Source of the DNA: an uncultured Aliiroseovarius sp.
GTDB lineage: Bacteria > Pseudomonadota > Alphaproteobacteria > Rhodobacterales > Rhodobacteraceae
Length of the DNA stretch: 64,000 nucleotides
Direction of reading: 5' to 3'
Assembly (NCBI RefSeq): GCF_947492455.1
Contig: NZ_CANLNB010000004.1
Coordinates: forward strand, 124,001 to 188,000
The notes under the pieces are model-generated. The model was not told the origin of the DNA. It searched no databases and was given only the letters and a program-made list of their open reading frames with translations. Position numbers and translations under genes: made by a program. The stretch's first letter is position 1. Every line of letters begins with the position of its first letter. Positions 37,449-60,973 of the stretch are shown piece after piece.

Positions 37449-38843
37449 TTAAGACTTGAGTTGTCCCCACAAATCATATTCCCCCGCCTCGTCGACCTCG
37501 ACGGACACGATATCCCCGACCGAAAGCCCCTTGGTGCCGTCGTCGATGAACAGGTTGCCGTCGATTTCCGGCGCGTCGGCTTTGGTGCGGCAGGTGGCGA
37601 TGCCGTCTTCGTCGATGTCGTCGACGATCACGTCCATCACCTGTCCGACTTTCGCGGCCAGTTTGGCTTCCGAGATCGCCTGCGCCTTTTCCATGAAGCG
37701 TTCCCAGCGGTCTTGTTTGACCTCGGCGGGGACGTGATCGGGCAGGTCGTTGGAGCGTGCGCCGTCGACGTTTTCGTATTGGAAGCAGCCGACGCGATCC
37801 AGTTGGGCCTCGTCCATCCAATCCAGAAGGGTTTGGAATTCTTCCTCGGTCTCGCCGGGGTAGCCCACGATGAAGGTCGAGCGCAGGGTGATGTCTGGGC
37901 AGTCCGCACGCCATGCGGCGATCTCGTCCAGTGTTTTGGAGGCCGCTGCCGGGCGGGCCATACGTTTCAGGATGTCCGGGTGGGCGTGCTGAAAGGGGAT
38001 GTCCAGATAGGGCAGGATCAGGCCTTCGGCCATGAGTGGGATTAGATTGCGCACATGCGGATAGGGATAGACATAGTGCAGGCGCACCCACAGGTCTTTG
38101 CCCGCCCCCAGCGCGCCAAGGTCGCGCGCCAGATCGGTGATGTGGGCGCGGTGGCCGCGCTCTTCCGCGTGTTTGATGTCGACGCCATAGGCCGATGTGT
38201 CCTGTGAAATCACCAGTAGCTCTTTCACGCCAGCCTCTACCAGCTTGCCAGCTTCACGAACGACCGCATGGGCCGGACGGCTGGCGAGTTTCCCGCGCAT
38301 ATCGGGGATGATGCAGAACTTGCACTTGTGGTTACAGCCCTCGGAAATCTTCAGATAGCTGTAGTGGCGCGGCGTTAGGCTGACGCCCGTGGCTGGCAGC
38401 AGGTCGATGAAGGGATCTGGGCTGGGCGGTACGGCGCCGTGCACGGCGTCCAGCACCTGCTCGTACTGATGCGGGCCGGTGACGGCCAAGACGCTGGGGT
38501 GGGTGCCGCGGATGTAATCCTCTTCCGCGCCCAGACAGCCGGTGACGATCACCTTGCCATTTTCGTTCAGGGCTTCGCCAATGGCTTCAAGGCTTTCAGC
38601 CTTTGCCGAGTCCAGAAACCCGCAGGTGTTTACGATCACCGCATCCGCGCCGGAATAGTCCGGGCTGATCGCATAACCTTCGGCGCGCAGGCGCGTCAGG
38701 ATGCGTTCGCTGTCGACCAGCGCCTTTGGGCAGCCAAGGCTGACCATGCCCACGGTGGGCTGACCCGCGCGGGCGGGCTCGGAAAAGCGGGCCTTGGGGG
38801 CAAGGTCGGGGCGCAGGTTGGGCGGATTTACAGGATCTGTCAT
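37449..38843 (-). CDS. rimO: Ribosomal protein S12 methylthiotransferase RimO
   Basis: A 464-residue radical-SAM methylthiotransferase that modifies Asp88/89 of ribosomal protein S12. The N-terminal UPF0004 domain has [13 protein letters not shown] and [10 protein letters not shown], with the Cys set for the auxiliary cluster, completed by [10 protein letters not shown]. The radical-SAM motif is [14 protein letters not shown], and a C-terminal TRAM domain starts near [15 protein letters not shown]. The S12-specific CPKALVDSE distinguishes it from MiaB. It appears monocistronic. Confidence 0.97.
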
Positions 38844-38947: not shown

Positions 38948-39538
38948 TTACCGCTTGCGGTCGCGGCGCGAGGACATCGGCTGGAACGCCACGCCCACGT
39001 GTGCTTCGCAATAGGGCTTGCCCTGCTGCACGGCCAGACCGCAGAACCAGAAGTCATCGGTGGCCGGGTCACCCACGGGCCATTTGCAGGTCTTCTCGGT
39101 CAGTTCCATCAGGTTCAGGCGCTTGGCGCCTTTTTCCACTTCGCTGACCTTGGCCAGGGCCTCGGGGCTGATCTCGTTGGCCGAAGGCTGCGGGGGCAGG
39201 GGTTGGCCTGCCGGAATGATCGCCTTGCGCGCGGGCGTTGCAGGCTTGGCTTCAGCTGCAGGCGCCTCTTCGGCTTTCGGCGCAGGTTCAGCGGCTTTCT
39301 TCGGGGCAGCCTTGGGCTTGGCCGCTACCTTAGGCTTGGCGGCTGTCTTGGCCGTTGCCTTGTCGCCCGCAGGAGCTTTGCTGCCACCGCTCGAGCGGTT
39401 GGATAGGCCCAGACGATGCACCTTGCCGATGACCGCATTGCGGGTCACGCCACCAAGTTCCTTCGCGATGACCGAGGCCGATTGACCCTCGCCCCACATC
39501 TTCTTCAGGATTTCTACGCGCTCGTCTGTCCAGGACAT
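38948..39538 (-). CDS. gcrA: GcrA cell-cycle regulator
   Basis: A 196-residue protein. The N-terminal helix-turn-helix MSWTDERVEILKKMWGEGQS with TRNAVIGKVHRLGLSNR is diagnostic of GcrA, the alphaproteobacterial regulator that binds methylated GANTC-containing promoters with sigma-70 and activates cell-cycle genes. A long Ala/Lys/Pro-rich linker (residues about 60-125) connects to a C-terminal domain with TCKWPVGDPATDDFWFCG and KPYCEAHVGVA, which contacts sigma-70. GGGAAG precedes the chosen ATG. It has its own terminator. The match to the family is strong. Confidence 0.97.
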   Translation of the reverse strand: MSWTDERVEILKKMWGEGQSASVIAKELGGVTRNAVIGKVHRLGLSNRSSGGSKAPAGDKATAKTAAKPKVAAKPKAAPKKAAEPAPKAEEAPAAEAKPATPARKAIIPAGQPLPPQPSANEISPEALAKVSEVEKGAKRLNLMELTEKTCKWPVGDPATDDFWFCGLAVQQGKPYCEAHVGVAFQPMSSRRDRKR

Positions 39539-39645
39539 GCTTTCTTCCCGTCTGCTTGGGGGCGGCCGTTCTCGGTCAGGCCCCTTTGAATTCACAAGCC
39601 CCTATACTAGTCACCCACGCGGCGGATACAAGCCAAGAAGCCGCT

Positions 39646-40521: not shown

Positions 40522-40559
40522 CCTTTCCCTCTACGCGTGCGCATCCCGATTGAAAAGGC

Positions 40560-40588
40560 TGGACAGAACAGGCGCGATCCCCTATCTC
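40560..40588 (+). promoter_or_regulatory. Promoter with leaderless geometry upstream of the arginine operon
   Basis: TGGACA (-35) and TATCTC (-10) have a 17-bp spacer. The -10 box ends exactly 6 bp before the ATG of a 17-codon frame, so transcription would start at or near that A. Confidence 0.5.
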
Positions 40589-40594
40589 GCCCCC

Positions 40595-40648
40595 ATGATC
40601 AAACGCCTGCATATCGCTGAAACCCGACGCCGACGCACCCGCGCCTGA
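40595..40648 (+). CDS. Possible arginine-rich leader peptide of argDF
   Basis: A 17-residue frame MIKRLHIAETRRRRTRA with six Arg, four of them consecutive (CGA CGC CGA CGC). It has no ribosome site but sits right after a promoter-like pair, as expected for a leaderless transcript. Downstream come a perfect 7-bp hairpin (40668-40684) and a terminator-like hairpin (40719-40753) directly before argD. Amino-acid-rich leader peptides controlling attenuation are established for trp, ilv and leu operons, and the trpL leader of Sinorhizobium is leaderless. An arginine version here is inference, and I found no convincing antiterminator pairing. Confidence 0.45.
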   Translation: MIKRLHIAETRRRRTRA

Positions 40649-40718
40649 CGTCCCGTTCGTTTGTTCCTGCGCAACGTTTGCGCAAACCCATCCAAAACCA
40701 TCTGGAAATTGTTGACTT

Positions 40719-40753
40719 GAGGCCCGCCATCCGGCACCCAAAGGCTTCTTTTT
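40719..40753 (+). terminator. Terminator-like hairpin upstream of argD
   Basis: GAGGCC pairs with GGCTTC (one G-T), enclosing a smaller GCC-ATCC-GGC hairpin, and five T follow. The argD ribosome site (GAAGAGG) begins right after. A candidate attenuator; the outer stem is only 6 bp. Confidence 0.5.
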
Positions 40754-40768
40754 GAAGAGGATACCACC

Positions 40769-41950
40769 ATGATCCCGTCGCTTCTGCCGACCTATAACCG
40801 TGTTGACCTTGCTTTCGAGCGTGGCCAGGGCAGCTGGCTTGTCACGGATGGGGGCGAGCGATATCTGGATCTAGGCGCGGGCATCGCGGTGAACGCGCTG
40901 GGCCACGCCCATCCTGCGCTGGTCGAGGCGCTGACCGAGCAGGGTGCGAAGCTGTGGCATGTGTCGAACCTCTATAAGATCCCGCAGCAGCAGACGCTGG
41001 CCGATCAGCTGGTCGATCTGACCTTTGCCGACACCGTGTTCTTCACCAACTCGGGCACCGAAGCGTGCGAACTGGCGGTGAAGATGGCGCGGAAATACTG
41101 GTCGGACAAAGGCGAAGACCGCGCGCGGATCATCGGCTTTGAGGGCTCGTTCCACGGACGCTCGTCGGCGGGCATTGCCGCCGCGGGTGGCGAAAAGCTG
41201 ACCGCGGGTTTTGGCCCGCTTCTGCCCGGCTTCACACATCTGCCGTTCGGCGACCTCGACGGTCTGACCAATGAACTGGCCGAGGGCGACGTGGCCGCCG
41301 TGATCATCGAACCCGTGCAGGGCGAGGGCGGCATCCGCCCCGTCCCAGATGACGAGCTGAAAGCCATCCGCGCCGCCTGTGACGCCGCTGGCGCATTGCT
41401 GATCTTTGATGAAGTGCAATGTGGCATGGGCCGGACGGGCAAGCTGTTCGCGCACGAGTTCTCGGGCGTCACACCGGACATCATGATGGTCGCCAAAGGC
41501 ATCGGCGGGGGCTTCCCGTTGGGTGCTGTGCTGGCGACCGAAGACGCGGCAAGCGGCATGGTCGCGGGCACCCACGGGTCCACCTATGGCGGCAACCCGC
41601 TGGCCTGTGCCATCGGCTCGAAAGTGACCCAGATCGTCGCCGATCCCGAATTTCTGGCCGAGGTCAGCCGCAAGGCCGGTTTGTTCCGTCAGAAGCTGGA
41701 GGGCCTTGTCGCTGCGCACCCGGATGTTTTCGAAAGCGTCCGCGGGTCGGGCCTGATGCTGGGTCTGAAGTGTAAGGCGACCAACATGGACGTGCTGGCG
41801 AAATGCTATGACGCGAACCTGCTGTGCGTCCCCGCAGGCGACAACGTGCTGCGCATCCTGCCCGCGCTGACCATCGAAGACGAAGACATTGCCGAGGCGA
41901 TCACCCGCCTTGAAACCGCTGCCAAGGCTGTGGAGGGCCAAAGCGCATGA
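40769..41950 (+). CDS. argD: Acetylornithine aminotransferase
   Basis: A 393-residue class III PLP aminotransferase that converts N-acetylglutamate semialdehyde to N-acetylornithine. It shows [18 protein letters not shown], the PLP-contacting [15 protein letters not shown] and the Schiff-base Lys in [13 protein letters not shown]. Its start follows GAAGAGGATACCACC. The stop overlaps the argF start (ATGA), so the two are translated by coupling. A promoter and possible attenuator lie in the 247-bp region upstream. Confidence 0.96.
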
Positions 41951-42873
41951 AACATTTCCTCGACATCAACGCCACGGAAACGGGCGAGCTGAAAAACATC
42001 ATCTCGGAAGCGCACCGGATCAAAGCCGCGCGTGCGGGCCGCCCCAAAGGCGCCCTGGACGACGAAAAGCCGCTGGACGGCCACATGGTCGCGCTGATTT
42101 TCGAAAAGCCCTCGACCCGGACGCGCGTCAGCTTTGACGTGGGTGTGCGCCAGATGGGCGGTGAAACCATGGTTCTGTCCGGCTCTGAAATGCAGCTGGG
42201 TCATGGTGAAACTGTTGCCGACACCGCCAAGGTGCTGTCCCGCTATGTTGACATGATCATGATCCGGACCTTCGAAGAAGCGACCCTGCTCGAGATGGCG
42301 GAATATGCCGACGTGCCGGTGATCAACGGGCTGACCAACCGCTCGCACCCCTGCCAGATCATGGCCGACATCCTGACGTATGAGGAACATCGCGGCTCGA
42401 TCGAGGGCAAGAAAGTGGTCTGGGCGGGTGACGGCAACAATGTCTGTGCCTCGTTCCTGCACGCCGCTGGCCAGTTCGGGTTTGACCTGACCTTCACCGG
42501 ACCGGAACCTCTGGACCCGGAAATGGCCTTTGTCGAGGAAGCCCGCGCCAAAGGCGTGAATGTCGAGATCGTGCGCGATCCGGTGAAGGCCGTGGAAGGT
42601 GCGGATCTTTTGGTCGCCGATACCTGGGTGTCGATGCACGACGCGCCCTCGGCCCGCGAACGTCGCCACAACCTGCTGCGTCCCTATCAGATCAATGACG
42701 AGCTGATGGCGCACGCCAAACCCGACGCGCTGTTCATGCACTGCCTACCCGCGCATAGGGAAGAGGAAGTGACGAACTCTGTCATGGATGGTCCGCAGTC
42801 GGTGATCTTTGACGAGGCCGAGAACCGCCTGCATGCCCAGAAAGCCGTCATGCGCTGGTGTTTGGGCAAGTAA
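41947..42873 (+). CDS. argF: Ornithine carbamoyltransferase
   Basis: A 308-residue enzyme joining carbamoyl phosphate (from CarAB) and ornithine to citrulline. It shows the carbamoyl-phosphate motif [27 protein letters not shown], and the ornithine-site [19 protein letters not shown] is also typical. The ATGA overlap with argD fixes the start. A strong terminator follows 22 bp downstream, so the operon is probably just argDF plus the leader. Confidence 0.97.
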
Positions 42874-60896: not shown

Positions 60897-60973
60897 GGTC
60901 CCTTAGCTCAACTGGATAGAGCAGCTGACTTCTAATCAGCAGGTTGAGGGTTCGAGTCCTTCAGGGATCGCCA
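60897..60973 (+). tRNA. tRNA-Arg (anticodon TCT)
   Basis: A 77-nt cloverleaf. Acceptor GGTCCCT pairs with AGGGATC, the D-arm is in AGCTCAACTGGATAGAGCA, the anticodon loop CTTCTAA gives TCT, and the T-arm contains GGTTCGAGTCC. A G discriminator and an encoded CCA end follow. It reads AGA/AGG Arg codons, rare in GC-rich genomes. An AT-richer block begins downstream, so this gene is a candidate integration site. Confidence 0.97.

Follow-up and report, generated by a model that had tools for sequence, protein, structure and literature searches.

How do alphaproteobacteria that seem to carry no ArgR repressor control the synthesis of arginine? The question is raised by the argD-argF operon in the 64,000-nucleotide stretch of DNA analysed here, which we call the window, where a preliminary description had drawn attention to a short, arginine-rich reading frame ahead of argD. 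Overall, we believe that this region is an arginine-sensing, ribosome-mediated leader-peptide attenuator of argDF, a reading of function built on sequence comparison to which we give a probability of about 0.68. Comparison gives good support to the sensing half of this reading, whereas its output half is still a proposal. Leader-peptide attenuation has been described for several amino acids, to which arginine biosynthesis would be an addition, and for alphaproteobacteria that lack ArgR the leader element offers a family-wide, testable answer to the question of how arginine synthesis is controlled. The readings weighed below are not mutually exclusive, and our confidence in them need not sum to 1.

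The profile for ArgR (PF01316) matched nothing in 21 genomes, 13 of the window's genus (its own included) and 8 of other families, so that the Rhodobacteraceae were represented in this search by the window's genus alone; as a control, the same profile matched E. coli and 8 others of 14. ArgR is described as conserved in gammaproteobacteria and missing from other proteobacterial classes in one survey (PMC5343134).

Between 40560 and 40768 of the window, the promoter-like TGGACA/TATCTC pair, the 17-codon frame, the 7-bp hairpin and the stem-loop H3, with its outer stem and five T, all lie exactly where the preliminary description had drawn them (Table 1). A gap of 6 bp separates TATCTC from the leader ATG at 40595, and six of the 17 leader codons specify Arg (codons 4, 11-14 and 16). 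The outer stem of H3 has 6 bp, including one G-U (GAGGCC, 40719-40724, with GGCTTC, 40743-40748), and an inner GCC/GGC; TTTTT (40749-40753) stands directly 3' of it, followed by the argD ribosome site and then the argD ATG at 40769. The last 4 bases of argD are also the first 4 of argF. A simple consensus scan of the window called neither a promoter nor a terminator at the leader region, the terminator pattern admitting loops of 3-8 only and hence being blind to the outer stem of H3. The host genome comprises 3.09 Mb.

Table 1. Coordinates of the argD-argF operon and of the elements upstream of it, in window positions.
Feature	Position	Strand	Remarks
P1, putative leader promoter	40560..40588	+	TGGACA (40560-40565), 17 bp, TATCTC (40583-40588)
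Leader frame MIKRLHIAETRRRRTRA	40595..40648	+	Stop TGA 40646-40648; presumed transcript 5' end; no Shine-Dalgarno
Presumed sensor	40625..40636	+	Four tandem Arg codons, CGA CGC CGA CGC
H1, 5' arm	40597..40605	+	Start codon and codons 2-4; own-versus-cross pairing
H1, 3' arm	40658..40666	+	10-18 nt 3' of leader stop; own-versus-cross pairing
H2, perfect 7-bp hairpin	40668..40684	+	TGCGCAA/TTGCGCA; z -2.8
Spacer	40649..40711	+	C-rich and G-poor, possible Rho loading region; base composition
P2-like element	40712..40740	+	TTGACT, 17 bp, CACCCA; TTGAC position near-constant, -10 degenerate
H3, stem-loop and five T	40719..40753	+	Terminator-like in genus; arm pairing, T counts
argD, acetylornithine transaminase	40769..41950	+	NF002325 590 bits, TIGR00707 454 bits, both above cut-off
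argF, ornithine carbamoyltransferase	41947..42873	+	TIGR00658 375 bits, above cut-off

On the strand opposite argD, and upstream of it, lie genes for an EamA-type transporter (PF00892; 39646-40521), for a GcrA cell-cycle regulator (38948-39595; PF07750 160 bits, under the cut-off of NCBIfam NF050816) and for the ribosomal protein S12 methylthiotransferase RimO (37449-38843; TIGR01125 545 bits). In S. meliloti, gcrA is reported to be divergent from argD (PMC3616915), and compared with that arrangement the transporter gene may stand between gcrA and argD in the window.

The Arg-run leader upstream of argDF is real and conserved, far beyond chance. We collected argD upstream regions from 30 loci found by genome search and from 80 named contigs, which together gave 103 distinct usable regions, and scored as a leader any ATG frame of 9-26 codons with an Arg run within its last nine residues. 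Runs of at least four Arg occur in 69 of the 103 regions, compared with 2 of 2060 shuffles and 1 of 103 reverse complements, and runs of at least three in 84, compared with 29 of 2060 dinucleotide shuffles and 3 of 103 reverse complements; a run of four for any of the 11 other amino acids tested was found in none of the 103. Within the window's genus, RRRR is present in all 20 assessable genomes, the window's own included, the region of the 21st (L004) ending at a contig edge. That locus is left out of all counts, as are L083, with 72 bp of upstream sequence only, and L031, which repeats the window's region; L093, which has no Arg-run leader, is omitted from the structure counts, and the H1, codon and promoter counts (n = 81, 84 and 66) omit loci that lack a three-Arg run or TTGAC or have a short spacer. 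All of these loci are related by descent, so that the counts are of non-independent events, and the window's genus has more than its share in the sets of 103, 94 and 84 loci.

An even sample is provided by a draw of 61 Rhodobacteraceae genomes, one per genus, of which 60 had argD at the limit used; all 60 regions were read, over 320 bp upstream of argD (310 bp in one). An Arg run of at least three stands near the end of a short frame in 34 of these genera, RR in 13 and less than that in 13. Persistence of the frame and its Arg run in close relatives had been set beforehand as the first refutation test for an arginine leader peptide ahead of argD-argF, and both persist, in 20 of 20 genomes of the genus and, for the run, in 34 of the 60 genera. 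Several of the RR cases resemble shortened forms, with endings such as IRRA and PRRSTRRA. In L221, L207, L204 and L190 (genomes G069, G097, G064 and G091), a 10-codon leader ends in IRRA, with the promoter TA in place and two tandem Arg, which suggests a reduced or decaying form. One genome (G035, locus L138) has a 25-codon RRRR frame 269-347 bp 5' of argD, farther than elsewhere, and is scored as lacking a leader since this frame exceeds the 320-bp limit. The leader was found in none of 12 genomes from other families of the class, and the element thus appears, on this sampling, to have arisen or been retained within the Rhodobacteraceae.

The leader is very probably leaderless, its transcript beginning at the A of its own ATG. 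In 84 loci aligned on that ATG, T occupies -35 in 83%, T occupies -12 in 68% and A occupies -11 in 77%, and a TA starting between -16 and -11 is present in 79 of the 84, in 56 of them at precisely -12. In P1, the bases at -35, -12 and -11 are spaced canonically relative to the A of the leader's ATG; promoter elements usually stand this far from a transcription start, which would make that A the start. The promoter spacing counts as separate support because it was by the Arg run, and not by the promoter, that we picked the frames. In the even draw, TA lies at -14 to -10 in 31 of the 34 leaders with a run of at least three Arg and in 11 of the 13 RR cases; of the 13 genera below RR, 5 have no short frame at all and TA is in place in 1 of the other 8. 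A Shine-Dalgarno-like 4-mer precedes the leader in 6 of 84 loci, compared with 81 of 84 ahead of argD. The leaderless start put forward in the preliminary description is thus backed by two agreeing lines, the promoter spacing and the missing Shine-Dalgarno sequence.

The spacer from the leader stop to the downstream TTGAC contains more C than G in 80 of 81 loci, and its pooled composition (38.3% C, 20.8% G) compares with 30.5% C and 31.9% G in the first 600 bases of argD; such a spacer would suit Rho-dependent termination relieved by a stalled ribosome. That a stalled ribosome can occlude a Rho site has been reviewed in the cases of tnaC and bp2923 and has been suggested for a uORF of S. meliloti (PMC12218461). 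Because Arg codons stand before an arginine operon, because ArgR was found in none of the genomes searched, and because of this bias toward C, relief of premature termination by an arginine-starved ribosome would be the most economical model. Consider a cell with ample charged Arg-tRNA. The first base transcribed from P1 would be the A of the leader's ATG, and a ribosome would load on the leaderless 5' end and translate about ten codons to reach the Arg run, there to be read by tRNA-Arg(ACG). The ribosome would run through and depart. With the start codon then folded into H1 against the post-stop region, no further ribosome would load and the C-rich RNA would be left naked; Rho, H3 or both would end the P1 transcript ahead of argD. 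In a cell short of Arg-tRNA, the ribosome would instead stall on the run, cover part of the C-rich stretch and hold the RNA open, and transcription would continue into argDF. Comparison supplies this model with the conserved frame and its Arg run, with the choice of codons, the spacing of the promoter, the pairing in H1, the excess of C over G and the failure to find ArgR, and the model adds to them a start site, stalling, a direction of response and a termination step that are our reconstruction. For the termination step we lean toward Rho, at a little short of even odds, since we found no conserved antiterminator and unbroken T runs occur unevenly. Intrinsic termination at H3 is a good second, more tentatively held and likeliest in the window's genus.

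The pairing of the start-codon region with the post-stop region is the most prominent structural signal. We compared the pairing of two arms within their own locus with their pairing between loci, a comparison in which kinship was handled only by omitting similar arms. In 74 of 81 loci the H1 arms pair better within the locus than the median cross does (mean -12.4 versus -9.3 kcal/mol), 13 of the 81 falling within the best 5% of crosses, and in a scan of 856 segment pairs over 66 thinned loci H1 ranks first (t -6.9, 55.5/66), with a neighbouring pair second. Paired changes are exemplified by GAUUAAACG/UGUUUAAUC in L022 and GACGUGCA/UGCACGUC in L079. The window's copy of H1 carries a single mismatch and is unexceptional (p 0.42); the helix is part of the minimum-energy fold of the 73-nt leader and absent from that of 166 nt. 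Folding energies of single sequences give z values of -2.8 for H2, -1.1 for 40719-40748, -0.2 for the 73-nt leader and +0.76 for 166 nt, and so offer no support beyond H2, the whole leader being no stabler than its shuffles. H2 itself (segment pair S13-S29, t -3.7) cannot be a general element, as post-stop spacers go down to 27 nt, and a part for the 7-bp hairpin in the attenuator is not supported.

The preliminary description had also envisaged a classical attenuator of the trp type, in which stalling on the Arg codons would let an antiterminator form and block an intrinsic terminator at H3. There is indeed a hairpin with a T-rich tail before argD. In 72 of 94 loci the arms of H3 pair better with each other than the median cross does, compared with 44 of 94 for control arms, with 4 of 94 in the best 5%; its t of about -4.8 comes next after H1 in the scan, and we call the conserved pairing suggestive because the opposite tail of the scan reaches +4.7. 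At least four T occur within the 8 nt past the 3' arm in 19 of 20 loci of the genus and in 51 of 94 overall, and an unbroken run of at least four T ahead of argD in 25 of 94, a pattern that makes H3 a plausible terminator in the window's genus and a less plausible one across the family. A cysS uORF with a terminal U run, known from the Rhodobacterales (PMC8632094), also speaks for such an attenuator. What the scheme wants is its switch, and here the doubt already voiced about a clear antiterminator is borne out: among the 856 segment pairs in the 66 thinned loci, none joins the post-stop region to the H3 arms convincingly (best t -2.1), and no conserved antiterminator emerged by eye in 27 folded loci or from partition functions in 81. 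When folding began 15 nt beyond the first Arg codon of the run, as behind a ribosome stalled on that codon, the expected number of H3 pairs fell by more than 1 in 21 of 81 loci and rose in 8, a small mean loss (4.01 to 3.55; in the window, 3.7 to 3.1). The covarying pair that the scan put first joins the start codon to the post-stop region, not the post-stop region to H3. A classical switch would be weak and not conserved in form, likeliest in some loci, and as a general account we consider it unlikely.

Other structures and signals in the same region were considered and set aside. Pairing of the leader Arg region with the stretch before TTGAC (S-27 with T-10 and T-6; t -3.2 and -3.0) lies within the range of the opposite tail of the scan (+4.7). 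A T-box or riboswitch is rejected for want of an Rfam match: at the gathering score, the whole window yielded one tRNA (60897) only, and 40540-40800, searched at E up to 5, yielded one opposite-strand match (E 2.7), far under the gathering score. A sigma-54 reading of GGCAC..GGGC in H3 was dismissed by eye, as the GG-GC spacing varies and GG is absent from several loci. A hairpin that could mask the argD Shine-Dalgarno sequence (CUUCUU/AAGAGG, window 40743-40762; -4.0 kcal/mol, z -2.0) and excludes H3 is also predicted; it could form in transcripts from the P2-like element and be displaced by H3 in read-through transcripts, and is beyond the reach of covariation because the Shine-Dalgarno sequence is constant.

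The P2-like element counts against the attenuator reading: lying 3' of the leader, it could free argD from P1. TTGAC occurs 40-85 bp 5' of argD in 95 of 100 loci, often with CA or TA 17-18 bp on. We read this element as a former argD promoter, because in 4 of 12 loci of other families, all without a leader (L144, L145, L147 and L153), argD is preceded by TTGAC-17-GATACT or CATACT. In the leader-bearing loci its -10 has at most three of six matches to TATAAT (81 of 81), and H3 crosses it. On its own, TTGAC-N-CACC carries no weight, because it is not rare enough in the window (3 matches, 1.6 expected). If P2 still works, P1 would be a regulated supply on top of a basal one.

A more radical division of labour would have P2 mainly serve argDF and P1 yield a small RNA or peptide that acts in trans, in the manner of rnTrpL/peTrpL, and is ended at H3. 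The near-universal TTGAC element would allow this, and the leaderless, dual-function trpL of S. meliloti is a precedent (PMC10117765). The degenerate -10 of P2 in all 81 leader-bearing loci speaks against it, as does the place of argD as the sole leader-bearer among 8 genes examined in the host genome, from which one would expect the leader to act in cis. Upstream of the other seven (argC, argG, argJ, argB, argH, carA and argS), the nearest 420 bp contained no ATG frame of 8-30 codons with RRR, the spans being measured from the profile match, so that a start may be off by some codons. Leaders ahead of other arg genes are rejected on this count, argJ and carA having upstream short frames with RR only, and because these seven genes lack an RRR frame the leader would control one operon only. 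We regard P2-driven argDF with a trans-acting P1 product as quite improbable, and such a product need not exclude the arginine attenuator, with which it is compatible.

Returning to the arginine attenuator and its sensing half, the choice of codons within the run points to a single tRNA. The 325 run codons of the 84 loci comprise 160 CGC, 148 CGA and 17 CGT, with no CGG, AGA or AGG, whereas among the 1386 Arg codons of argD in the same loci CGG accounts for 357 (25.8%) and CGA for 97 (7.0%). The even draw agrees, with 59 CGA, 67 CGC, 7 CGT and no CGG in 133. Among 45 tRNA hits in the host genome, there is one tRNA-Arg gene each for the anticodons ACG, CCG, CCT and TCT, ARAGORN giving no call at two tRNA loci (L179 and L241). 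The ACG anticodon, modified to ICG, reads CGU, CGC and CGA, and CCG reads CGG, so that the run codons would all belong to one tRNA, Arg-ACG. One of the four single-copy Arg tRNA genes found, that with anticodon TCT (L174), lies in the window itself at 60897-60970. Selective-charging theory accommodates a sensor built from the codons of one isoacceptor (PMC1183508), and the idea that attenuator codons follow the tRNA isoacceptor finds a natural test in the avoidance of CGG. At the same time, codon choice need not matter everywhere, because rare and frequent Arg codons performed alike in the orf34 leader of Salmonella (PMC6386406).

These codons also bear on an arrest peptide, in which a nascent basic chain would sense arginine or ornithine and stall the ribosome by its own sequence instead of through uncharged tRNA. 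Basic chains have effects in the exit tunnel, and SpeFL and the fungal arginine attenuator peptide stall by their own sequence. The constant position of the run near the leader C-terminus (0-5 residues from the end in 81 loci) fits such a role, but by inspection only the Arg run is kept between genera, the other residues varying widely, with the last one Ala in 42 of 81 loci, and the exclusion of CGG indicates a tRNA and not a peptide as what is sensed. We consider an arrest peptide very unlikely. Least credible of all is that the run arises incidentally from a conserved element in the DNA or RNA and is never read as codons, for although 54 of the 84 loci have exactly the string CGACGCCGACGC, which may also be held by pairing of the run with the post-stop region, the runs are written in 18 different nucleotide strings, every one of which encodes Arg in the frame set by an ATG at the putative transcription start.

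The arginine-sensing attenuator thus remains our preferred reading, and it has to live with several difficulties. A conserved antiterminator was not found, the window's H1 is mismatched, and the whole-leader fold is unremarkable; C-richness predicts Rho action weakly; not even RR is present in 13 of 60 family genera, and other families of the class show no leader (0 of 12 genomes). A more novel reading, which we think less likely than not, is an attenuator that works without an antiterminator: H1 would limit each transcript to one ribosome, whose stalling at Arg would decide between Rho-type termination and read-through, and read-through would cross a hairpin set in the old argD promoter. If true, this would be the first such attenuator for arginine biosynthesis and a new switching layout.

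Among the matches listed in the open-access literature there is no attenuator of an arginine biosynthesis operon; novelty is provisional. For the arginine operons of Actinobacteria, PMC1262725 reports no conserved RNA structure upstream. Regulation by ArgR likewise places arg genes under the control of arginine, by means of a protein repressor that was not found in the 21 genomes searched. The nearest likeness in sensing is the orf34 (SpeFL) leader of Salmonella speF, where tandem leader Arg codons also sense arginine, Lys codons in their place abolish the response, and Rho is involved; it differs in controlling ornithine decarboxylase in gammaproteobacteria, in its long leader with an RNase G-sensitive structure, and in holding its Arg codons at positions 12-13 inside a conserved peptide (PMC6386406). 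In the same order as the window, uORFC-8-2 ahead of cysS is likewise a short ORF with tandem cognate codons, but these specify Cys, the gene encodes a tRNA synthetase, and a terminal U run is reported in every case (PMC8632094). The Rho-dependent uORFs tnaC, bp2923 and S. meliloti duf1127_1 resemble our model in that the ribosome masks a Rho site at or after the uORF; their signals are tryptophan excess, copper and translation state, and not shortage of a single amino acid (PMC12218461). Closest in form is the leaderless trpL of S. meliloti (rnTrpL/peTrpL), an alphaproteobacterial short leader at the transcript 5' end before a biosynthetic gene, with 14 amino acids to the 17 in the window (PMC10117765). 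Set beside trpL, the leader in the window, whose leaderless start is predicted and for which no conserved antiterminator was found, carries Arg in place of Trp codons, a helix between its start codon and the post-stop region, and a degenerate argD promoter beneath its last hairpin.
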